DNA of 55,563 nucleotides from Stenotrophomonas maltophilia (GTDB lineage: Bacteria; Pseudomonadota; Gammaproteobacteria; Xanthomonadales; Xanthomonadaceae), in contig NZ_RAVT01000022.1 of NCBI RefSeq assembly GCF_013464915.1, positions 24,480 to 80,042 of the forward strand, in the 5' to 3' direction. Below the pieces are notes generated by a model that saw only the letters and a program-made list of their open reading frames with translations, was not told where the DNA came from and searched no databases. Shown here in pieces: positions 10,196 to 36,332 of this stretch. The first letter of the stretch is position 1; each line of letters starts with the position of its first letter. The position numbers and the translations under genes were made by a program.

Positions 10196-10309
10196 TTGTC
10201 GCACTGACGTCATGGCTCCTTCACAGATCGCGCCGAGACTGCGCGCCTTGTCCAGACCTGTTGTGTCCGCACAGGTACTGGCCCTGTCGTGTCCTCCCGG
10301 AGCCCTGCC

Positions 10310-12712
10310 GTGCATCGTTCGAAGCTTTCGCGTTCCATCCTCCTTGCCCTTTCCATGGCCAGCGCAGGAGGCGCGATCGCAGCGGAGGCCGATGCGGTCG
10401 ATGCCAGCAGTGTCAGCCGCGCCGTGCCCACCCAGCTTGACGCGATGCTGGTCACCGGCACCCGCGCGTCCAACCGCACCCAGTTCGAAACGCTGGCGCC
10501 GGTGGACGTGTTCACCAAGGAGGACATCAGGTCGGTGGAATCCACCGACCTGAAGGACGTGCTGGCGCAGCTGGTGCCGTCGTTCGTGGTGCAGCGCCTG
10601 CCGATGGCGGACGGCCAGGTGTTCGTGCGCCCGGCCACGCTGCGTGGCCTGTCGCCGGACCAGACCCTGGTGCTGGTCAACGGTCGTCGCTTCCATCGCA
10701 GTGCGCTGCTCGGCAACCGCGGCGCGCAGGCGGCCGATCTGGCACAGATTCCGACCAGTGCGATCAAGCGCATTGAAGTGCTGCGCGATGGTGCCTCTGC
10801 GCAGTACGGCTCGGACGCCATCGCCGGTGTCATCAACATCATTCTCGAGGATGGCCCCGGTACCGAGATCACCGCCGGCTATTCGCAGTACGCACAGGGC
10901 GATGGCGCGTCGCGTGATTTCAGCGCACGTACCGGCTGGTCGCTGGGTGACTACGGCAGCCTGGTGCTGTTCGCCGAATCGTCCAACTCCGACGCCACCT
11001 CGCGCACCCGCCAGCGCCCGGATGCGATCGCCTTCCAGGCCGCGCATCCGGATCTGGACGTGTCCAATCCGGTACAGCGCTGGGGTCAGCCGGAACTGGA
11101 AAGCCGCCGAGTCGGCTTCAACGTAAAGGCCAATGCCAGCGACGCGCTGGAGCTGTATGCGTTCGGCCTGTACAGCCACAGCGATGGCGTCAGCGATTTC
11201 AACTGGCGCAACCCGGACACCACCACCGGTGCCTACCGCACCACAGCGATCTTCCCCGGCTGGAACCTGCGTTCGATCTATCCGGTGGGCTTCAGCCCGC
11301 AGTACGGCAACGTCCAGAACGACCTGCAGCTGGTTGGTGGCCTGCGTGGCGAGATCACTCCGAAGCTGCGCTGGGATGTCAGTGCGTCGTATGGCCGCAA
11401 CGCCATCGACTACAGCCTGAAGAACTCGATCAACGCCTCGCTCGGCCCGGCCAGCCCGACCGCGTTCGATCTCGGCCGTCTGACCCAGACCGAGAAGAAC
11501 GCCAACGCCGACTTCAACTACGAGTGGGACGTGGCCGCGCTGGCCAAGCCGATCAACGTCGCCTTCGGTGGTGAGTTCCGCCAGGAGACCTACCAGGTGC
11601 GCGCCGGTGATCCGGCCTCGTACGCGGTAGGCCCGGGCGCGGCCGCGGGCCTGGAGGCCAACTCCAACGGCGCACCGGGCTTCTCGGCCAGCCAGGCCGG
11701 GCAGTGGAGCCAGCGCAGCAAGGCGGCCTACGTGGATATGGAAGTGCCGCTGGGCGAGCGCTGGAGCATCGGTGCAGCCAGCCGTTACGAGGACTTCTCC
11801 AGCTTCGGCAGCACCCTGGACGGCAAGCTGTCGGCACGCTTTGCGATCACCCCGGACGTGGCCCTGCGCGGCACCGTGTCGACCGGCTTCCGCGCACCGA
11901 CCCCGGCGCAGCTCAACACCACCAGCACCACCCAGGGCCTGGATACGCGCACCCTGCAGATCTTCACCAGTGGCCGCCTGTCGCCGAACGACCCGCTGGC
12001 GCAGATGCTCGGTGCCAGGCCACTGAAGCCGGAAGAATCGCGTACCGCGTCGCTGGGCCTGACCTGGCGCACCGACCTGGGCCTGTCCGGCTCGGTGGAT
12101 GTCTACCAGATCAAGCTCACCGACCGCTTCAGCCAGTCGGCCAGCTTTGCCATTCCGGCAGGCACGCCGAATCCGCTGGGCTATACCTCGGTGAACTACT
12201 TCACCAACGATTTCGATACCACCACCACCGGCGTGGACGTGGTCGGCAACTACCTGCGCGATCTCGGCGCCGGCCGCATGACGCTGACCTTGGCCTACAA
12301 CTACAACCGCACTCGCGTGGACAACGGCAGCACCTCGGTGGCCACCAACGAAACCCAGCGCGTGCTGTTTGAAGACCGCCTGCCCGAGCACAAGGGCAGC
12401 CTGACCGGCAGCTGGGACATCGGTGCCTGGTCGCTGATGGCGCGCATGCGCTACTACGGTGCCTGGACCGACTCCAGTGGCAATGCAGTGGGCGATATCT
12501 ACCAGCGTTTCGGTGCGATGAGCTTCCTCGACCTGGCCGTCGGCTATCGCATCAACGAACACCACAGCCTGCGCGTGGGCGCGGACAACGTGTTCGACCG
12601 CTATCCGGACGAAGCGACCTTCCAGGCCAGCCGTGGCCTGGTCTACTCGCGCAACGCGCCGTATGACACCGACGGCGCCAATCTGTACGCACAGTACCGG
12701 CTGAGCTTCTGA
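10310..12712 (+). CDS. TonB-dependent outer-membrane receptor
   Basis: The 800-residue receptor has a signal peptide (ILLALSMASAGGAIAAEA) and a TonB-box-like LDAMLVTGTRA. The plug domain (about 60-180) contains LRGLSPDQTLVLVNGRR and IKRIEVLRDGASAQYGSDAIAGVINIIL. The beta-barrel ends in an aromatic final strand (LYAQYRLSF). I use the GTG at 10310, preceded by CGGAG, since an upstream GTG would lengthen the signal region. The gene overlaps the following Tat-exported PLP enzyme by one base, so the pair is translationally coupled. Import of an amine- or peptide-containing ligand acted on by that enzyme is inferred. No obvious Fur box was seen. Confidence 0.85.
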   Translation: MHRSKLSRSILLALSMASAGGAIAAEADAVDASSVSRAVPTQLDAMLVTGTRASNRTQFETLAPVDVFTKEDIRSVESTDLKDVLAQLVPSFVVQRLPMADGQVFVRPATLRGLSPDQTLVLVNGRRFHRSALLGNRGAQAADLAQIPTSAIKRIEVLRDGASAQYGSDAIAGVINIILEDGPGTEITAGYSQYAQGDGASRDFSARTGWSLGDYGSLVLFAESSNSDATSRTRQRPDAIAFQAAHPDLDVSNPVQRWGQPELESRRVGFNVKANASDALELYAFGLYSHSDGVSDFNWRNPDTTTGAYRTTAIFPGWNLRSIYPVGFSPQYGNVQNDLQLVGGLRGEITPKLRWDVSASYGRNAIDYSLKNSINASLGPASPTAFDLGRLTQTEKNANADFNYEWDVAALAKPINVAFGGEFRQETYQVRAGDPASYAVGPGAAAGLEANSNGAPGFSASQAGQWSQRSKAAYVDMEVPLGERWSIGAASRYEDFSSFGSTLDGKLSARFAITPDVALRGTVSTGFRAPTPAQLNTTSTTQGLDTRTLQIFTSGRLSPNDPLAQMLGARPLKPEESRTASLGLTWRTDLGLSGSVDVYQIKLTDRFSQSASFAIPAGTPNPLGYTSVNYFTNDFDTTTTGVDVVGNYLRDLGAGRMTLTLAYNYNRTRVDNGSTSVATNETQRVLFEDRLPEHKGSLTGSWDIGAWSLMARMRYYGAWTDSSGNAVGDIYQRFGAMSFLDLAVGYRINEHHSLRVGADNVFDRYPDEATFQASRGLVYSRNAPYDTDGANLYAQYRLSF

Positions 12713-14013
12713 TGGACCGCAACCGCCGCTCCCTGCTGCGTGCCGGTGCACTGCTGCCGGCTACGGCCGCGCTGTCTTCACTGCCCGCCGTGGCTGCCGC
12801 GGGTTACGCTGCGCCCATGCAGATTCCCGCAACGACCGTGGCGCCGGACGTGCTGGCCCGCGATGAAGGCTACTGGACCGCCGTGGCCAGCCACTTCGAC
12901 ATCACCGATGAAGTGAACCATCTGGAGAACGGCTACTGGGGCGCGATGGGCCGCGAGACGCTGGCCAGCTACCAGCGCCACACCGCCGAGGTGAACCGTG
13001 GCAACGCGTGGTATGGCCGTCGCGAGTTTCCGGCGCAGTACATCGCGGTGCAGCGGCAGGTGGCCGAGCTGCTGGGCGTGGGTGCCGACGAGATCGCACT
13101 GACCCGTGGCGCCACCGAGGCGATGCTGGTGCTGATCGGTGGCTACAACCGCCTGCAGCCCGGCGACCAGGTGCTCTACGCCGACATCGACTACGACAGC
13201 ATGATCGGCGCGATGCGCTGGCTGCAGCAGCGTCGCGGCGCGCAGGTCGAGCGCATCGCGCTGCCGGCAGTGCCCGACCACGCGCAGATCCTGCAGGCCT
13301 ACGAGGCCGCATTCGCGCGGTTGCCGCACCTGAAACTGGTGCTGCTGACCCAGGTCAGCCATCGCCATGGGCTGGTGCTGCCGGTGGCGGAGATCGCCGA
13401 GCGTGCGCGAGCACGCGGTATCGATGTGATCGTTGATGCGGCCCATGGGTTTGGCCAGATCGACTACGCGGTGCCGCAGCTGAACGCCGACTTCGTCGGC
13501 ATCAACCTGCACAAGTGGATCGGTGCGCCGGTCGGTGTCGGCGCGATGTACGTGCGCAAGGGGCGCGTGACCGACCTGGACCCCTACATGGGCGAGACCG
13601 ACGATGGCCGTGTGAGCAGCCGCGTGCACACCGGTACGGTCAACTTCGCCGCCTACCTGGCACTGCCGGACGCCATTGCCCTGCATCAGCGCATCGGCGT
13701 GGCCAACAAGCAGGCGCGCCTGCGCTACCTGCGTGAGCGCTGGACCGTGCCGGCGCGGCAGATGGCACATATCGAAGTGCTGTCCTCGCCGGACCCGGCG
13801 CTGGCCAGTGCGCTGGCCAGCTTCCGCCTTCGCGGGCGCACCAGCCTGGCTGACAACATCGCGCTGCAGAAGCGCCTGCTGAATGAGCATCGCGTGTTTA
13901 CTACCCACCGTGACGGCTTGGACTCCGGCGCCTGCGTGCGGGTGACGCCGTCGGTATTCACCCGGCCGGAGCAGATGGATGCCCTCGTGCAGGCGCTCGT
14001 GGCATTGGGGTAG
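12712..14013 (+). CDS. Tat-exported class-V aminotransferase-fold PLP enzyme (isopenicillin-N-epimerase/PvdN-like)
   Basis: The 433-residue protein opens with a twin-arginine-type signal (MDRNRRSLLRAGALLP...PAVAAAG), so it should be folded with cofactor and sent to the periplasm. The PLP-binding Lys is in GINLHKWIGAP (about residue 268). VIVDAAHGFGQID gives the Asp contacting the pyridine nitrogen, and DEIALTRGATEAM the phosphate site. The best-known Tat-exported member of this fold is PvdN, which modifies the glutamate of pyoverdine in Pseudomonas; EgtE-type C-S lyases share the fold. It overlaps the TonB receptor gene and faces a MocR regulator. Substrate unknown; S. maltophilia is not known to make pyoverdine. 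Confidence 0.85.
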   Translation: MDRNRRSLLRAGALLPATAALSSLPAVAAAGYAAPMQIPATTVAPDVLARDEGYWTAVASHFDITDEVNHLENGYWGAMGRETLASYQRHTAEVNRGNAWYGRREFPAQYIAVQRQVAELLGVGADEIALTRGATEAMLVLIGGYNRLQPGDQVLYADIDYDSMIGAMRWLQQRRGAQVERIALPAVPDHAQILQAYEAAFARLPHLKLVLLTQVSHRHGLVLPVAEIAERARARGIDVIVDAAHGFGQIDYAVPQLNADFVGINLHKWIGAPVGVGAMYVRKGRVTDLDPYMGETDDGRVSSRVHTGTVNFAAYLALPDAIALHQRIGVANKQARLRYLRERWTVPARQMAHIEVLSSPDPALASALASFRLRGRTSLADNIALQKRLLNEHRVFTTHRDGLDSGACVRVTPSVFTRPEQMDALVQALVALG

Positions 14014-15387
14014 TGCCGGCAACGCATCCGACAACAACAACCGGTCAATCCGCCGCAGCGCACTTTCCAGCTGCCTGCGGTCCGCTGCCAGCCCCAGCGA
14101 CAGCCGCACGCCATTCGGGTGCGACACGCCGGGCGGACAGAATGCCGATGACGGTGCGATCGCCAGTCCCTGCAGCTGCGCGGTACGCACCAGGGTCGCA
14201 TCGGTCCACGGCGCCGGTATCCGGCACCAGGCATGCAGGCCTTCGGCACGCTGCAGCAGCGACGGTGCCAGCAGGTACCGCGCCATCCGCATGCGCTCAC
14301 CTGCTTCACTGCGTACCTGCGCCAGCAACGACTGTGCCGAGCCATCCAGCAGCAGCTGGCTGGCCAGCGCCGACACCAGCGGATGGCCCATCAACCGCGT
14401 TGCCCGCAGCGCGGCTGTCATCGCCTCGGCGTGTGCGGCACCCGGGCAGTGCACGAAGGCGGTGCGCAGGCCGGGGCTGATCACCTTCGACAGCGTCGCC
14501 ACGTAGAACACGTGGCGCGGCGCCAGTGTCGCCAGCGGTGTTGGCGCGTCTTCAGCAAGGTGCCAGTACGGATCGTCTTCGATCGCCAGCAGGCCTTCGC
14601 GTTCCAGCACGCGCGCCAACGCTTCGCGCCGCTGCAGGGACAGGGTCAGGGCGGTCGGGTTCTGGCAGGTGGGATTGAGATAGACCAGCCGTGCACCGCT
14701 GTCACGCGCCTGCCGCACCAGCGCTTCAGGGCACATGCCGTGTTCGTCGCCGTCCACCGGCAGCAGCCGACGCCCAAGCGCCGCTGCGGCCTGCAGCAGG
14801 CCCGGATAGACCAGCGCATCGCACAGGATCGCATCGCCATCGCGGCCCTGGCTGACCAGGATCGCGGCCAGCGCCACCTGCGCGCCTTCGGTCAGCAGCA
14901 GGCAGTTGTCATCCACGGCGCCCAGCATCGGCTGCAGCCAGCGCGCTGCTGCATGGCGATCAGTGGGGTTGCCGCCGCCCAGGTGATAGGTCATCAGGTT
15001 CGGTGCGTTGCTGCGTGCAAGCACGGCGGCGGCACCGCGGCGCAGCGTCTCCGCCAGCGCGTCGGCATCAGGCACCGGCGGCACGTTCATGCTCAGGTCC
15101 ACCACCTGGTCGAAGCCAGCCTTGGGCGGCGCGATGAAACTGCCTTGTGGCCCGCGCGCTTCGATCAGGCCGCGCTTGCGTGCTTCATCGAAGGCGCGGG
15201 TGACCGTGGTCAGGTCGATGCCCAGCTGCTGCGCCAGCGCGCGCTGCGAGGGCAGGCGCTGGCCGGGTGCGAGGCCGCCCCGACGCACCGTGCGTTCCAG
15301 TGAGTTGACGATGCGCAGGTAGATCGGCCCGCTGTGTGCAAGCACGTCCTGCACCCACTCGCGCGCTGCGACATCCGGTCGCGGCAT
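12778..15387 (-). CDS. MocR-type (GntR-HTH plus aminotransferase domain) regulator, frame continuing antisense through its neighbour
   Basis: The recognisable protein spans about 15387 to 13990. The winged helix is LAPGQRLPSQRALAQQLGIDLTTVTRAFDEARKRGLI. A PLP aminotransferase-like domain follows, with NPTCQNPTALTLS and the Lys in FYVATLSKVISPGLRTAF, ending at ...ALRRIDRLLLSDALPAL. No stop occurs there: the frame stays open for about 400 more codons, exactly antisense and codon-aligned to the PLP-enzyme gene, until 12778. The tail is Arg/His/Gln-rich and not protein-like. Start 15387 aligns with the second MocR (17873); an earlier ATG at 15516 would cover the palindrome at 15432-15463. Convergence on the TonB/PLP operon suggests it controls it. 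Confidence 0.65.
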   Translation of the reverse strand: MPRPDVAAREWVQDVLAHSGPIYLRIVNSLERTVRRGGLAPGQRLPSQRALAQQLGIDLTTVTRAFDEARKRGLIEARGPQGSFIAPPKAGFDQVVDLSMNVPPVPDADALAETLRRGAAAVLARSNAPNLMTYHLGGGNPTDRHAAARWLQPMLGAVDDNCLLLTEGAQVALAAILVSQGRDGDAILCDALVYPGLLQAAAALGRRLLPVDGDEHGMCPEALVRQARDSGARLVYLNPTCQNPTALTLSLQRREALARVLEREGLLAIEDDPYWHLAEDAPTPLATLAPRHVFYVATLSKVISPGLRTAFVHCPGAAHAEAMTAALRATRLMGHPLVSALASQLLLDGSAQSLLAQVRSEAGERMRMARYLLAPSLLQRAEGLHAWCRIPAPWTDATLVRTAQLQGLAIAPSSAFCPPGVSHPNGVRLSLGLAADRRQLESALRRIDRLLLSDALPALPQCHERLHEGIHLLRPGEYRRRHPHAGAGVQAVTVGSKHAMLIQQALLQRDVVSQAGAPAKAEAGQRTGQRRVRRGQHFDMCHLPRRHGPALTQVAQARLLVGHADALMQGNGVRQCQVGGEVDRTGVHAAAHTAIVGLAHVGVQVGHAPLAHVHRADTDRRTDPLVQVDADEVGVQLRHRVVDLAKPMGRINDHIDTACSRTLGDLRHRQHQPMAMADLGQQHQFQVRQPRECGLVGLQDLRVVGHCRQRDALDLRAATLLQPAHRADHAVVVDVGVEHLVAGLQAVVATDQHQHRLGGATGQCDLVGTHAQQLGHLPLHRDVLRRKLATAIPRVATVHLGGVALVAGQRLAAHRAPVAVLQMVHFIGDVEVAGHGGPVAFIAGQHVRRHGRCGNLHGRSVTRGSHGGQ

Positions 15388-15431
15388 GTACGGAGCATGT
15401 CGGGGCGTATCGTTGCTTCCAACGGCGGGAG

Positions 15432-15463
15432 CCTGTCCATAACCATCGGTCGGTTCGGACAGG
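15432..15463. promoter_or_regulatory. Nested palindrome upstream of the first MocR gene (candidate autoregulatory operator)
   Basis: CCTGTCC (15432-15438) and GGACAGG (15457-15463) are perfect inverted repeats. Inside them AACC and GGTT add further symmetry. The site lies 45 bp upstream of the chosen MocR start. MocR proteins usually bind paired half-sites near their own promoter. A shorter CCTGT-N9-ACAGG occurs at 10257-10275, ahead of the TonB/PLP operon. Confidence 0.45.
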
Positions 15464-15525
15464 TGACCGCCGTTGTTGTTTGCGGCGGCCGCGCCGGCCA
15501 GCGTCAGTGATGTCATTGCGCGTCC

Positions 15526-16125
15526 TCAGCGCTTGGCCTGCCACGGGCAGTAGCAGCCCACGGCAAGCAGTCCCTTGGGGCGCACGGTTTCGCCGCGCAC
15601 CAGTCTGTCCAGCAGCGGTTCGACGAAGCTGTTGGCCGAATTGCAGACCATGCCGATGCTGTATGGCCCGGCATAGGCGAGGTGGCCCTGGCGGTCCCAG
15701 ATGGCTACGGCGGGGCTGGCCGGAATGTGTTCGATGCCGTCGATGGTCGGAAGGTTGATCACCTTGTTGCGCAGCGGCTCGGGCAGTTCGCCCTGCGTAC
15801 CCGGGCGGCGGATCGCATAGAAGTCGATGCCGGCGCGGCGGTACATGCTGATCAGGTAGCTCAGGTGCGCACCGGTTTCGCGGTTGCACACGCCGCAGGC
15901 CGGGTCCCAGAAATGCACCACGCGGATGCGGCCGGTATCACCGGCCAGATCGGCTGGCAGGCGCAGTTGCGAGTCGTCGAAGACGATCGCCTGCTCGGTG
16001 AAGGTGGATTGCGCGCTGTAGCCGAAGTACTGCCACAGGGCTGCTGCAACGCCGGCCATGAACAGGCAGGCGAGGGCGATCATCGTCGGCAGCAGCCAGC
16101 GGCGACGCGGCGCGGCTGCGCCCAT
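15526..16125 (-). CDS. Membrane-anchored thioredoxin-like protein (DUF6436-type)
   Basis: The 199-residue protein has one N-terminal transmembrane anchor (about residues 10-33) and a periplasmic thioredoxin-like domain. IRVVHFWDPACGVCNRETGAHL contains a CxxC (Cys-Gly-Val-Cys) at the usual first-helix position. The cis-Pro region is probably IPASPAVAIWDRQGHLAYAGPY. A second Cys cluster near the end (GCYCPW) is unusual. It overlaps the small membrane gene before it by one base (TGATG) and is followed by the MocR gene. Likely a thiol-disulphide or metal-handling protein. Its link to the MocR regulator is by position only. Confidence 0.7.
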   Translation of the reverse strand: MGAAAPRRRWLLPTMIALACLFMAGVAAALWQYFGYSAQSTFTEQAIVFDDSQLRLPADLAGDTGRIRVVHFWDPACGVCNRETGAHLSYLISMYRRAGIDFYAIRRPGTQGELPEPLRNKVINLPTIDGIEHIPASPAVAIWDRQGHLAYAGPYSIGMVCNSANSFVEPLLDRLVRGETVRPKGLLAVGCYCPWQAKR

Positions 16126-16385
16126 CAGGAATCTTCCCGGCCGAACTTGTGCACGTACTGCTTGCGCATCTCGCGGCAGGAATCGGCCTGCGCGCGGCGC
16201 TGGATCTCGCTACGCGACGGATCCTCGCTGCGCTGCACGCACTGCTCGATGGCATGGCGCTCGGCGGCCTGCACGTCCACGGTCTGCGGCTGCAGGCAGA
16301 CCCAGGCCAGCGCGGCCAGCATCAGCACGACAAAGCCGCCGCAACCGGCCATCACCAGGTGGAACTTCAGTTTCTCGGCGCGCAT
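16125..16385 (-). CDS. Small single-pass membrane protein
   Basis: The 86-residue product has a basic start (MRAEKLKFH), one transmembrane helix (about 10-32, including GCGGFVVLMLAALAWVCL) and a charged C-terminal domain outside. That domain has two cysteines (EQCVQRSED and DSCREMRKQY) that could pair. A longer frame begins inside the operator at 16403-16436, so I use the ATG at 16385. It is translationally coupled to the thioredoxin-like gene, which could act on its cysteines. The family is not recognised. Confidence 0.65.
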   Translation of the reverse strand: MRAEKLKFHLVMAGCGGFVVLMLAALAWVCLQPQTVDVQAAERHAIEQCVQRSEDPSRSEIQRRAQADSCREMRKQYVHKFGREDS

Positions 16386-16402
16386 CGATGCACGTCCTTC
16401 AT

Positions 16403-16436
16403 CCATACATTGCATACAAAATATCATCTTGTATGG
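16403..16436. promoter_or_regulatory. MocR-type operator, copy 1 (CATACAA-N8-CTTGTATGG)
   Basis: A CCATACA half-site at 16403-16409 is followed by CATACAA (16413-16419), an 8-base spacer, and the inverted CTTGTATGG (16428-16436). The same CATACAA-N8-CTTGTATGG arrangement occurs upstream of the second MocR gene at 17909-17933, with unrelated spacer bases. It lies between that MocR gene's end and the small membrane protein's start, so it probably controls the membrane protein/thioredoxin-like/MocR operon. Confidence 0.6.
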
Positions 16437-16457
16437 ATGAAGCGCCATGCGCCCGAT

Positions 16458-17873
16458 TCAGACGATGGCGCTGTGCCGGGCCTCGGGGGCTTCAGACAGG
16501 ATCTCGTTCAGCTTGGCCAGCGCCCCGGCCAGCGCGCCCTGGTCGACTGCGCCGCCCAGCGACAGGCGGATCGCGTTGCCCGGTGGCGGCTCCTCCACGC
16601 TGAAGGCGTCGGAGCTGGCGATGCCCAGCCCCTGCTCCTGGGCGGCCTGGATCAGCCGGTACTGGTCCAGCCGTGGCGGCAGCGGCAGCCACACGTGCAG
16701 GCCGGCCGGATGCGCCTGGGCACGGGCCGGCAGGTAGCGGGCAGCAATGGCCTGGCGCTCGCGCAGCTCCTGCTGGAAGCGCTGCACCATGTCCCGGGCC
16801 TGGCCACTGCGGATCCACTGCGAGGCCACCGCCACCATCGACTGGGTCGGCATCAGCGCGATCGCACGCAGGGCGTCCAGCACCGGTTCCATCGGCTCGC
16901 CGGCCGGCACCACCAGGTAGGCGGTGCGCAGGCCCGGGGCCAGGCACTTGGACAGGGTGGAGATGTAGTAGACCGGGCAGCCGGCGTCGCGATGGGCGGC
17001 CAGCGGCGGCGCGGCGTCACCGGCCAGCAACCAGTAGGGATCGTCTTCGATCACGGTCAGATCGTGGCGCTTGGCGACGTCCAGCAGAGCCTGCCGGCGT
17101 TGCGCCGACATCGTTGCCGTGGTCGGGTTCTGGATGGTCGGCACCAGGTACAGCAGGCGCGGGCGCCGCAGCTGGCAGGCCTCTTCCAAGGCATCGGGCA
17201 GCATGCCTTCGGCGTCCATCGCCACCGGCACCACGCCCCGCTGCAGCACGCGCGCGGCGGCCAGCAGGCCCGGGTAGGTCAGCTGTTCGGCGGCAATCAG
17301 CTCGCCCGGCTGGGTGCGGGCCAGGATCAGCGCACACAGCGCGGTCTGCGCGCCGGGGCAGATCACCACCTGGTCGGCACCCACCGTGCCCAGCATCGGC
17401 GCCAGCCACTGCACCGCGGCGGCGCGATCCTCGCGGGTGCCGGCGCCGACGTGGTAGCTCATCAGTTCACCCTGGCCCAGCTGCTGCCCTACGTGCTGGA
17501 AGCCGGCTTCCATGCCCTGCGCGAACGGCGCGCTGCCCAGCAGCGGCGGGATGTTCATGCTCAGGTCCACCGAGGTGCTGCGGTTGCCGGCCGACAGCGC
17601 GATGAAGGTGCCACCGGCGCCCTGCGCATCAAGCAGGCCGGCCTGGCGCAGCTCGGCGAAGGCGCGGGTGACCGTGGTCAGGTCCACGCCCACCTGTTGG
17701 GCCAGGTCGCGTTGTGGCGGCAGGCGGTCGCCCGGGCGCAGCACGCCGTCATCCACCGCTTCGCGCACCTGCTGGGCAATCTGCAGGTACAGCGGGCCGG
17801 CGCCCTCGCGGAACGGGCGAACCCAGGTGCGATTGGGGTGTTTCAGGCGGCGGCCGGCGGCAGGTGGCGTCAT
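16458..17873 (-). CDS. MocR-type transcriptional regulator (GntR-HTH plus aminotransferase domain)
   Basis: The 471 residues are of normal MocR length. The N-terminal winged helix (about 25-95) reads VLRPGDRLPPQRDLAQQVGVDLTTVTRAFAELRQAGLL. The fold-I aminotransferase-like domain (about 120-460) includes LVPTIQNPTTATM, VIEDDPYWLL and the PLP Lys in YYISTLSKCLAPGLRTAYLV. Such proteins sense PLP or an amino-acid-type ligand. It is about 40% identical by eye to the other MocR here. An operator-like site sits directly upstream of its start, with a sister site between its end and the next same-strand gene, suggesting autoregulation plus control of that operon. Confidence 0.85.
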   Translation of the reverse strand: MTPPAAGRRLKHPNRTWVRPFREGAGPLYLQIAQQVREAVDDGVLRPGDRLPPQRDLAQQVGVDLTTVTRAFAELRQAGLLDAQGAGGTFIALSAGNRSTSVDLSMNIPPLLGSAPFAQGMEAGFQHVGQQLGQGELMSYHVGAGTREDRAAAVQWLAPMLGTVGADQVVICPGAQTALCALILARTQPGELIAAEQLTYPGLLAAARVLQRGVVPVAMDAEGMLPDALEEACQLRRPRLLYLVPTIQNPTTATMSAQRRQALLDVAKRHDLTVIEDDPYWLLAGDAAPPLAAHRDAGCPVYYISTLSKCLAPGLRTAYLVVPAGEPMEPVLDALRAIALMPTQSMVAVASQWIRSGQARDMVQRFQQELRERQAIAARYLPARAQAHPAGLHVWLPLPPRLDQYRLIQAAQEQGLGIASSDAFSVEEPPPGNAIRLSLGGAVDQGALAGALAKLNEILSEAPEARHSAIV

Positions 17874-18056: not shown

Positions 18057-18962
18057 ATGAATATCTGCTGGAACCGCATCCGCCTGGCGCTGGTCGCCCT
18101 GGCCTGCGTCGGCCTGTCGGGCTGTGACTGGGTGCTGCTGGATTCGAAGGGCATGGTCGGGCTCGCCCAGCGCGACCTGATCCTGATCTGCATCGGCCTG
18201 ATGCTGATCGTGGTGATACCGGCCATCGTGCTGACCTTCGTGTTCGCCTGGCGCTACCGCGCCGGCAACACCAAAGCGAAATACACGCCGGACTGGTCGC
18301 ACTCCACCAAGGTGGAGATTGTGGTCTGGGGTGTGCCGCTGATCATCATCGCGGTGCTGGCGGTGATCGTGTGGAAGTCGACCCACGAACTCGACCCGTA
18401 CAAGCCGCTGGACGTGGCCGGAGAGCCGCTGCACGTGGACGTGATCGCCACCGACTGGAAATGGGTGTTCGTCTACCCGGACCTGGGCATCGCCACGGTC
18501 AACCAGCTCAACTTCCCGGCCAACCGCCCGCTGGCGTTCAACATCACCTCCAACTCGACGATGAACACCTTCTTCATCCCGCAGCTGGGTGGGCAGATCT
18601 ACGCGATGGCCGGCATGCGCACGCAGCTGCACCTGATCGCCAACGAGCCCGGCCAGTTCCGCGGCATGTCCGGCAACTACAGCGGGCATGGCTTCTCGAA
18701 CATGAAGTTCATCGCAACCGCCAGCAGCAACGAAGACTTCGAGCGCTGGGTGGCCGAGGTGCGCAGCGCGCCCGAAGCACTCAGCTTCACGCAGTTCAAG
18801 GCGCTGGCCGCGCCGTCGAAGAACGCACCGGTGCAGCACTTCTCCAGTGTTGAACCGCTGCTGTTCAAGAAGGTCATCGACCAGTTCATCGGCGTGGGTG
18901 AAAACACCGCCGCCGCCACCCCGGCGGGCGCTGCCGGTGGTGCCCAGGTTTCCCAGGAGTAA
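18057..18962 (+). CDS. cyoA: Cytochrome bo3 ubiquinol oxidase subunit II
   Basis: The 301-residue lipoprotein has a lipobox (LSGC), two transmembrane helices (about 40-65 and 85-108) and a periplasmic cupredoxin-like domain. That domain contains [19 protein letters not shown] and [19 protein letters not shown]. It lacks the CuA-binding Cys pair, as quinol oxidases do. A C-terminal COX-aromatic-rich region (about 230-280) precedes a low-complexity Ala/Gly end. It is the first gene of cyoABCD, with 5 bases to cyoB. The divergent upstream gene is a MocR regulator, with an operator-like site between them. Confidence 0.95.
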
Positions 18963-18967
18963 CGAAC

Positions 18968-20944
18968 ATGTTGGGTAAATTGACGTGGGAGGCCGTGCCG
19001 CTGCACGAGCCGATCGTCGTGGTCACATTGGCGGCCATGGTGCTGGGTGGCCTCGCGCTGCTCGGCGCGGTGACGTACTTCAAGCTGTGGGGCCCGTTGT
19101 GGCGCGACTGGTTCACCACCGTGGACCACAAGAAGATCGGCATCATGTACGTGGTGGTGGCGCTGGTCATGCTGGTGCGTGGCTTCGCCGATGCGCTGAT
19201 GATGCGCGCGCAGCTGGCCGCGGCTGGCCCGGGCAGTGACGGCTTCCTGCCACCGGAGCACTACGACCAGATCTTCACCGCGCATGGCGTGATCATGATC
19301 TTCTTCGTGGCCACCCCGTTCGTGGTCGGCCTGATGAACATCATCGTGCCGCTGCAGATCGGCGCGCGCGACATGGCGTTCCCGTTCCTCAACGCCTTCA
19401 GCTTCTGGATCTTCGTGGTCGGCGCCGCGCTGATGATGATCTCGCTGGGTGTCGGCGAATTCGCCATGACCGGCTGGGTGGCCTATCCGCCGCTGTCGGG
19501 CATCGAGTTCAGTCCAGGGGTCGGTGTCGATTACTACATCTGGGCGTTGCAGGCTTCGGGCATCGGCACATTGCTGACCGGCGTCAACCTGTTCATCACC
19601 ATCCTGCGCATGCGTGCGCCGGGCATGACCCTGATGAAGATGCCGGTGTTCACCTGGACCGTGCTGGTCACCAGCGTGATCATCATCGCCGCCTTCCCGA
19701 TCCTGACCGTGGCACTGGGTGCGCTCACCCTGGACCGCTACCTGGACTTCAACTTCTACACCAACACGTTGGGTGGCAACCCGATGATGTACGTGAACCT
19801 GGTGTGGGCCTGGGGCCATCCGGAGGTGTACATCCTGGTGCTGCCGGCGTTCGGCATCTTCTCTGAAGTGACCGCCACGTTCGCGCGCAAGAAGCTGTTC
19901 GGCTACAAGTCGATGGTGGGCGCTACGCTGGCGATCGGCATCCTGTCGTTCATCGTCTGGCTGCACCACTTCTTCACCATGGGCTCCGGTGCCAGCGTCA
20001 ATGCCTTCTTCGGCATCATGACGATGATCATCGCCATCCCCACCGGCGTGAAGATCTTCACCTGGCTGTTCACCATGTACGGCGGCCGCGTCGAGTTCAG
20101 CGTGCCGATGCTGTGGACCATCGCCTTCCTGGTCACCTTCACCATCGGTGGCATGACCGGCGTGCTGCTGGCCATCCCGGGCGCGGACTTCCTGCTGCAC
20201 AACAGCCTGTTCCTGGTCGCGCACTTCCACAACACCATCATCGGCGGCGCGCTGTTCGGCTATCTGGCCGGCTTCGCCTACTGGTTCCCGAAGGTGTTCG
20301 GCTTCACCCTCAACGAGCGCCTGGGCAAGTGGTCGTTCGCCTGCTGGGTGATCGGCTTCTACCTGGCCTTCATGCCGCTGTACATGCTCGGCTTCATGGG
20401 CATGACCCGCCGCATGAACCAGTACGACAACCCGGCATGGACGCCGTACCTGATCGCCGCCTTCATCGGCGCGCTGTTCGTGTTCGCGGGCATCATCCTG
20501 ATGCTGGTGCAGATCTACGTGAGCGTGCGCGACCGCAAGCGCAACCTGGACCTGACCGGCGACCCGTGGAACGCACGCACGCTGGAATGGGCCACGCCGT
20601 CGCCGCCGCCGTTCTACAACTTCGCCGTGGTGCCCAAGGCCGATGAGCTGGATGCCTTCCATGAAGCGAAGAAGCGCGGCCTGCCGCCGCCGCCGAAGAA
20701 GTACGCACCGATCCACATGCCGAAGAACACCGGCGTGCCGCTGATCCTCAACATCTGGATCCTGGTGCTGTGCTTCGCCCTGGTCTGGCACATCTGGTGG
20801 ATGGCCGCGGCCAGCTTCATCGCGATGATCGTGACCCTGATCGTGCGGTCCTATGACGAGGACGTGGACTACTACGTCAGTTCCGAAGAGGTGGCGCGCA
20901 CCGAAGCGGCCAGCCTTGCCAAGCTGAAGGAGGTACGCGCATGA
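18968..20944 (+). CDS. cyoB: Cytochrome bo3 ubiquinol oxidase subunit I
   Basis: This 658-residue heme-copper oxidase core subunit has about 15 transmembrane helices. Ligand motifs are visible: [16 protein letters not shown] for the low-spin heme His, [17 protein letters not shown] for the His-Tyr cross-link at Cu[12 protein letters not shown] for the two CuB histidines, and [14 protein letters not shown] for the heme ligands in helix X. The tail [13 protein letters not shown] is typical of CyoB. It couples ubiquinol oxidation to oxygen reduction and proton pumping. A CAGGAG site precedes the ATG. It overlaps cyoC by 4 bases. Confidence 0.96.
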
Positions 20945-21576
20945 ACCTGTTGACCCGCCCGGAGCTGGCCAGCGATACGCAGGCGCACCAGGACCACCAC
21001 GATCACGACCATGGCCACGAGCAGGGCGGCATGAAGGTGTTCGGCATGTGGGTCTACCTCATGTCCGACCTGGTGCTGTTCGGTTCGCTGTTCGCCTCGT
21101 ATGCGGTGCTCAGCACCGCATACGCCGGCGGCCCCACCGGCAAGGACCTGTTCTCGCTGCCGTTCGTGATGGCCGAGACCTTCCTGCTGCTGGTGTCCAG
21201 CATCACCTACGGCCAGGCCGTGCTGGCGATGCATCGCCACGATGCCTCGGCAGTGCTGCGCTGGCTGGGCGTGACCTTCGTGCTCGGTGCTTCGTTCATC
21301 GGCATGGAGATCTACGAGTTCTCGCACCTGATCCACGAAGGCGCCGGCCCGAGCACCAGTGCCTACCTGTCGGCGTTCTTCGCCCTGGTTGCCACCCACG
21401 GCCTGCACGTGGCCAGCGGCCTGATCTGGATGGCCGTGGTCATGCACCAAGTCTACAGCCGTGGCCTGACCCCGACCAACATCACCCGGGTGTCGTGCCT
21501 GAGCCTGTTCTGGCACTTCCTGGACCTGGTGTGGATCTGCGTCTTCACCTTCGTCTACCTGATCGGAGCCTTCTGA
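20941..21576 (+). CDS. cyoC: Cytochrome bo3 ubiquinol oxidase subunit III
   Basis: This 211-residue integral membrane protein has a His/Asp-rich N-terminal stretch ([12 protein letters not shown], about 17-28) and five predicted helices. Family features include [32 protein letters not shown] and [14 protein letters not shown]. The His cluster at the start is longer than usual and could bind metal. It overlaps cyoB by ATGA and is one base from cyoD, so the four subunits are tightly coupled. Confidence 0.95.
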
Positions 21577-36130: not shown

Positions 36131-36332
36131 CCGCCACCGATAAAGGTGGCGGGCAGAGCGTGGCTCGAAAACCGGATGTTGGGAACCGGCGGGTACAAGA
36201 CCCCCACGCCCCGCCCGCCATAGCCGGCAGACGGATTGCCAGCCGGCACCACGCGCGGTGGTGCCGGCTGGCAAGCGCAAACTACTTCCCAACAAAACGG
36301 GCTTTCGAGTCCCGACCACCGATGCACGGTGG
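36131..36332 (-). ncRNA. Cloverleaf-like structured element in the leader of the 118-residue gene
   Basis: Nested inverted repeats can be read directly. An 8-bp hairpin CCGCCACC-GATAAA-GGTGGCGG lies at 36131-36152. An outer stem CTCGAAA/TTTCGAG (36164-36170 with 36303-36309) continues through CCG/CGG and GTTGGGAA/TTCCCAAC (36178-36185 with 36286-36293). Inside are hairpin CCGGCGGG-type (36186-36227) and a perfect 17-bp hairpin with 5-base loop (36236-36274). A last hairpin CCACCG-ATGCA-CGGTGG is at 36316-36332. This is a flanked three-way junction. It could be a leader RNA, a small RNA, or a folded mobile-DNA end. Strand set by the adjacent gene. Confidence 0.5.

Follow-up and report, generated by a model that had tools for sequence, protein, structure and literature searches.

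What joins a TonB-dependent outer-membrane receptor to a pyridoxal 5'-phosphate (PLP) enzyme that seems bound for the periplasm, when the stop of the one gene and the start of the other share a base? In this study, we addressed this question for a locus of Stenotrophomonas maltophilia in a stretch of 55,563 nucleotides from contig NZ_RAVT01000022.1, analysed at its full length and hereafter called the window. An earlier note, made from the letters of the window alone, had suggested that receptor, enzyme and an adjacent PLP-sensing MocR regulator serve the uptake and in-periplasm processing of an amine- or cysteine-containing compound, perhaps a foreign siderophore or peptide. We find that the receptor–enzyme pair is genuine and conserved, and we consider it probable that the two proteins constitute one functional unit, in which a ligand is imported and then processed in the periplasm.

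The receptor gene occupies positions 10310..12712 of the forward strand, where the open reading frame may begin with the GTG at 10289 or the GTG at 10310, the latter being the start taken in the earlier note and better spaced after a CGGAG, and runs to the TGA at 12710–12712. Its product comprises plug and barrel (Pfam Plug, 80.2 bits; TonB barrel, 137.3 bits; both over their gathering scores) and, from profile scores and adjacent orthologues, forms a subfamily of its own. The enzyme gene follows at 12712..14013 on the same strand, from the ATG at 12712–12714 to the TAG at 14011–14013, and encodes 433 amino acids with a match of 124 bits to Aminotran_5. Both genes meet in a TGATG at 12710..12714 (forward strand), in which one base is common to receptor stop and enzyme start, as the earlier note had described.

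Comparable loci were collected by scanning 84,980 species genomes from two peptide patterns, from which the best 80 of 160 loci were taken, and by later picking 20 more by hand (14 from enzyme-only genomes of the genus, two whose receptor is broken or partial, three from distant relatives and one further pair). Including the window this makes 101 loci, ten of them repeats and 91 distinct, whose proportions are not natural frequencies, since relatives and receptor-less cases are over-represented in the sample. A TonB receptor lies upstream of the enzyme in 62 of the 91 distinct loci, at distances of −26 to +18 nucleotides in 61 of them and of 173 nucleotides in the last (L147), and overlaps the enzyme gene in 43 of the 62, by one base in 30 and by four bases in 10, counted on start codons as picked by script. 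A tblastn search of the 80 loci with the receptor returned the identical receptor-less set. Among 91 genomes of the genus, the enzyme was found in 66 (57–100% identity) and the receptor in 52 (58–100%), all 52 receptors adjoining the enzyme by coordinates and 14 genomes holding the enzyme alone; the receptor match is in two pieces in genome G036 and partial in G067. A receptor match with one in-frame TGA was seen in G066, and no stop was reported within the enzyme match of G036 or G066. Among 297 genomes of the family, the enzyme (E ≤ 1e-40) occurs in 20, ten of which also belong to the genus set, and the receptor, at 62% identity or more, in 15, always beside the enzyme; the next receptors listed reach at most 44% among the best three candidates scored per genome. 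That receptor was not found among the candidates scored in the enzyme-bearing genomes G006, G057, G560, G654 and G716, the last of which has another TonB receptor 173 nucleotides upstream of the enzyme.

Linked pairs were observed in Stenotrophomonas, Xanthomonas, Lysobacter, Luteimonas, Massilia, Janthinobacterium, Rugamonas, Duganella, Pseudoduganella, Undibacterium and Phenylobacterium, and with four plasmid-bearing genera the pair recurs in 15 genera and in three classes of Pseudomonadota by NCBI ranks. The enzyme itself has 4932 homologues at E ≤ 1e-10 among 7998 scored candidates, some of which may fall outside the family. Because the adjacency recurs in 62 of the 91 distinct loci and in all 52 receptor-bearing genomes of the genus, the pairing is conserved and not a matter of chance. 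The earlier note had asked whether it recurs in Xanthomonadaceae; it does, there and beyond.

Plasmids carry the pair as well. A tblastn search returned 13 matching plasmid records, eight of which were opened, with gene starts assigned by our own inspection. Five of the eight have a TonB receptor upstream of the enzyme (−1 to about 70 nucleotides) and in all five the enzyme has a twin-arginine leader: the distance is about 70 nucleotides on the Asticcacaulis plasmids AND118 and DW145 and about 15 on the Blastomonas RAC04 plasmid, the genes overlap by one base on the Novosphingobium PP1Y plasmid, and the receptor ends 2 nucleotides before the enzyme on pMEGA of Pseudoalteromonas TAC125, where the pair stands alone between a HipA-type module and hypothetical or plasmid genes. 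On the Gluconobacter and N. resinovorum plasmids the leader is found and no upstream receptor, the latter with a partial receptor-like stretch downstream of the enzyme, and the Caballeronia plasmid enzyme has neither. In the excerpts considered here, two papers on pMEGA mention both a TonB receptor and an aminotransferase but draw no link between them (PMC6848147, PMC11858219). Both genes appear in Table 4 of the excerpted PMC11858219, where co-expression gives weak support, because 25 of the 27 changed plasmid genes moved in the same direction.

Receptor and enzyme also diverged in parallel, with a correlation of r 0.948 between their distances over 47 linked pairs, a value reached by none of 2000 permutations; L147, receptors that were broken, partial or below 700 bits, and maltophilia loci that were near-identical to others had been left out beforehand. 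It should be noted that common descent alone likewise raises such values. Of the two partners the receptor has changed less, with 51% identity versus 47% for the enzyme between the window and Pseudoalteromonas and 69% versus 60% between the window and L061.

The N-terminus of the enzyme, MDRNRRSLLRAGALLPATAALSSLPAVAAAG, contains NRRSLLRAG followed by a hydrophobic stretch (12712..12810, forward strand). Conservation of R5 and R6 reaches at least 90% among 18 aligned homologues, although the remaining leader is variable, and the AlphaFold2 model has a pLDDT (predicted local distance difference test) below 50 at residues 3–8 and 10–31. Judged from its sequence, the leader is of the twin-arginine translocation (Tat) type, and the Tat signal and the class-V lysine motif of the earlier note are thus both found again. 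The predicted model and the alignments agree with a class-V fold, in which K268 of the motif NLHKW (codon 13513..13515, forward strand) would be the Schiff-base lysine and R410 (codon 13939..13941, forward strand) the arginine that binds the alpha-carboxylate, a role which we take to be the same as in SufS. Both residues occur in 76 of 76 aligned family members and align with the lysine and the arginine of PvdN and SufS.

From profiles, tree and model, the enzyme represents a family of its own. Its nearest solved structure is PvdN, the Tat-exported PLP tailoring enzyme of pyoverdine, at 25% identity. The likeness that had been noted earlier therefore holds at the level of the nearest relative, yet by score the enzyme lies outside the PvdN family: profile NF051467 gives 114.7 bits (112.8 in a whole-genome search) against a cut-off of 650. 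In a tree, the enzyme family and PvdN-like sequences form two separate clades, each with a Shimodaira–Hasegawa-like approximate likelihood ratio (SH-aLRT) of 100; this tree is a quick one with long branches, it leaves the clade order unresolved, and its four PvdN-like rows also score below 650 bits. In contrast to PvdN, the family has its own R103, R400 and HTGTxN motif as well as the paired receptor gene. With SufS and CsdA the enzyme has the class-V fold in common at about 16–24% identity, but it bears a Tat-type leader, lacks the catalytic-cysteine loop (missing in 11 of 11 aligned family members, but found in the SufS-type homologue that the genome also encodes) and reaches 98.8 bits against the SufS cut-off of 475.1 (TIGR01979; 124.6 bits for the pMEGA relative). 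The comparison with EgtE suggested earlier gave 94.5 bits against a cut-off of 400 (TIGR04343), which sets the enzyme apart from that family too, and we know of no receptor link for EgtE or for the L-cysteine-cystine lyase C-DES. No CefD row appeared among the NCBIfam matches of the enzyme, the existence of a CefD model not having been checked. Seven further gammaproteobacterial loci (L176, L177 and L179–L183) encode class-V PLP proteins with a twin-arginine leader and have no receptor like that of the window as neighbour; three of them (L181–L183) are PvdN-like.

Leader and receptor tend to be present or absent together. Over the 91 loci, 62 have both, 16 neither, 13 the leader only and none the receptor only, so that the leader is missing in 0 of 62 receptor-linked enzymes; the 16 include L077, whose contig starts 90 nucleotides upstream and hides its receptor state. 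L049 was taken as leader-less, since its two arginines are not followed by a hydrophobic core and a Tat signal is called only under a looser rule. On a tree of 75 rows, from which L058 and L146 were omitted, the receptor changes at least eight times and the leader at least five times. Within the clade of Xanthomonadaceae and Oxalobacteraceae (60 rows) each trait changes at least five times and the two agree in all 60 rows (45 with both, 15 with neither), and the other 15 rows, alphaproteobacterial or distant and including L111 (Polaromonas), L147 and L148, show the leader alone in 11 cases. The leader-less enzymes retain K268, D242, T135 and R410 in 15 of 15 cases and Y161, invariant in receptor-linked rows, in 11 of 15, and their ratios of non-synonymous to synonymous substitutions (dN/dS) of 0.11–0.20 (seven pairs) compare with 0.04–0.23 for receptor-linked enzymes (seven pairs), all pairs being hand-picked. 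With active-site residues kept and dN/dS low, they are apparently functional enzymes of the cytoplasm, and this speaks against a ligand for which that compartment is wholly out of reach.

We propose a model in which the receptor would carry into the periplasm a ligand that is scarce and has an alpha-amino-acid head group, while the enzyme would bind PLP and fold in the cytoplasm, be exported by Tat and then act on this head group by PLP chemistry that works without a desulfurase-type cysteine, for which PvdN-like tailoring, elimination or transamination are candidates. The substrate of the enzyme would be the ligand of the receptor, this ligand would carry an amino acid, and the benefit would be a nutrient other than siderophore iron. 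The model builds on the linkage of the two genes, their presence on plasmids and their correlated divergence, and further on the Tat-type leader, the class-V fold, the PLP residues and, in one clade, the joint absence of leader and receptor, as read from sequence and comparison. Uptake with in-periplasm processing, the core of the earlier suggestion, appears the likeliest reading because the genes are coupled, the leader is of the Tat type, the nearest solved relative is PvdN and the pair recurs. According to excerpts of a pyoverdine review, PvdN needs PLP bound before Tat export and modifies a glutamate residue of the siderophore (PMC6206403). The ferri-enterobactin system PfeA/PfeE of Pseudomonas aeruginosa resembles the pair in that the gene of a periplasmic enzyme acting on the ligand, the esterase PfeE, stands beside the receptor gene pfeA; as far as the excerpted source goes, it differs in that PfeE is not a PLP enzyme, the system is induced by enterobactin and its ligand is known (PMC8001512). 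That the pair is a self-contained two-gene cassette which moves horizontally and ties TonB import to PLP catalysis in the periplasm, for ligands that bear an amino acid and belong to a class not known so far to enter through TonB receptors, with a reaction new for class-V enzymes and with an enzyme that stays on in cytoplasmic form after receptor loss, we advance as a tentative possibility.

Several observations weigh against a strict unit of receptor and exported enzyme. The tree test on its own proves little: over all rows, supported branches offer five independent pairs, of which three change the same way and two show no difference (p 0.25), with 3 of 3 the same way inside the 60-row clade. 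Since receptor and leader are contiguous DNA, one deletion can remove both, and in L085 the enzyme comes directly after the gene that sits upstream of the receptor in L062. L058 (Rugamonas), which falls inside the clade and is the sole exception there, carries a leader but lacks the receptor. Ten alpha- and betaproteobacterial loci and the more distant Xanthomonadaceae loci L146 and L148 likewise have the leader and no neighbouring receptor (the contig ends 881 nucleotides upstream in L109 and about 2.1 kilobases upstream in L148), and the enzyme is therefore not always dependent on this receptor. The persistence of leader-less enzymes implies, in addition, that the reaction does not depend on a periplasmic setting, though the incomplete retention of Y161 among them qualifies this. 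The earlier note had counted homologues that lack both a Tat leader and linkage to a receptor gene as evidence against its proposal; such homologues do occur, but in the clade described above the two features are absent together.

Among other explanations, the pair could serve siderophore piracy, with a peptide siderophore of foreign origin entering through the receptor and the enzyme altering one of its amino-acid residues, which would help iron release. PvdN, the nearest solved structure, modifies a siderophore glutamate and PfeA/PfeE provides a working precedent, of which the enzyme would be the PLP counterpart (excerpts of PMC6206403 and PMC8001512), and PLSDB tags two plasmid receptors with 'siderophore transport'. 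Against this, the window receptor scores 71 bits with the siderophore receptor profile TIGR01783 (cut-off 223.5); for the vitamin B12 receptor BtuB it scores 133.6 bits (TIGR01779, cut-off 599.7). No Fur-box-like site was found upstream of the window receptor, the best stretch having 9 of 19 mismatches where shuffles average 9.5. In a scan of 56 upstream regions, eight, all from sister-lineage Stenotrophomonas, hold a Fur-like site with 3–4 mismatches before the receptor and L059 one with 6, which speaks for piracy, but 47 have at least 7. In the receptor-less loci L081, L084 and L091, the Fur-box-like ATGATAGTCATTATC precedes the probable start codon of the enzyme by about 100 nucleotides. 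Neighbours of the L081 enzyme are a divergent FhuE/FauA-like siderophore receptor (TIGR01783, 306.3 bits) and a PepSY_TM protein, and the sister-lineage site may therefore belong to these genes. Furthermore, on simple gene calls and leaving the receptor aside, different genera have no gene cluster in common next to the enzyme that could be a shared reductase or inner-membrane transporter. We therefore regard piracy as unlikely and the foreign-siderophore guess as weakened, and a cysteine-containing substrate has gained no particular support.

Were the enzyme instead to finish a self-made, exported metabolite in the periplasm, which the receptor would then re-import, the arrangement would follow the PvdN/FpvA precedent (excerpts of PMC6206403). 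No biosynthetic cluster recurs beside the pair in neighbour clustering on simple gene calls, though, and none is annotated around it on pMEGA or the Blastomonas plasmid, which makes such tailoring very unlikely. The receptor might also be a gate abused by an amino-acid-like antimetabolite that the enzyme destroys; a patchy spread (66 of 91 genus and 20 of 297 family genomes) and plasmid carriage would fit such an adaptive trait, but purifying selection still acts on the enzyme at loci that have lost the receptor, and we deem detoxification extremely unlikely. Translational overlaps are common in bacteria, and two unrelated genes could be held together by chance or by a common promoter; this is contradicted by the recurrence in 15 genera, the plasmids and the correlated divergence, and we give it practically no credence.

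The place that the earlier note gave to the MocR regulator did not withstand comparison. A MocR relative is found at 17 of the 80 genome-contig loci, all from S. maltophilia and close kin (enzyme identity at least 83%), and at none of the 63 others; it stays beside the enzyme in L049, where receptor and leader are missing, and is itself missing from the maltophilia-type loci L041 and L048. MocR is a local neighbour only and not part of the receptor–enzyme system. In the window, the MocR gene (12778–15516, reverse strand) has seemingly lost its normal end, so that the frame of 912 amino acids runs antisense through the enzyme gene, the last shared residues lying within about 30 nucleotides of the enzyme stop; the MocR stop is kept in L036, L013, L015, L016, L019 and L021. 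A DUF6436 gene flanked by two EhuR-like MocR paralogues occupies 13979–17873 (reverse strand). At 17 loci the simple gene caller behind the neighbour clustering overlooked the enzyme, but neither the Tat counts nor those of the receptor draw on it. A third conserved gene was not accepted: two neighbour clusters, c7 and c8, recur in several genera (c7 also in L054 and L060) and read from their sequences as aldehyde-dehydrogenase-like and aminotransferase-III-like, but in Stenotrophomonas several genes separate them from the pair, and they seem to be distinct members of large families. A Pfam scan of twenty neighbours gave no common function.

Few PLP enzymes work in the periplasm; excerpts of the pyoverdine review name two, PvdN and PtaA (PMC6206403). 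The open-licence literature that we searched held no description of the receptor–enzyme pair, which does not show its absence from print. As the enzyme family is, in many members, tied to one receptor family across classes and plasmids, receptor specificity and enzyme chemistry should be solvable together, and the joint absence of leader and receptor offers naturally occurring variants with which the enzyme's place of action can be tested. The pair would bring PLP chemistry to the known uptake systems that consist of a receptor plus a periplasmic enzyme.

An Rfam scan of the window found no riboswitch. A C4 antisense RNA (RF01695, 67 bits) was detected at 36142–36225 on the reverse strand, far from the pair, and hints at a P4-like element or prophage. 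Genes of a cyo-type terminal oxidase lie a few kilobases downstream of the pair both in the window (18057–21573) and on the AND118 plasmid (L188, 15046–19179), a nearness that is probably coincidence, because none is annotated beside the DW145 pair. Finally, two records titled as a Rickettsia endosymbiont metagenome-assembled genome (L039) and as Bacillus subtilis (L088) hold Stenotrophomonas-type loci, which probably reflects contamination or mislabelling.

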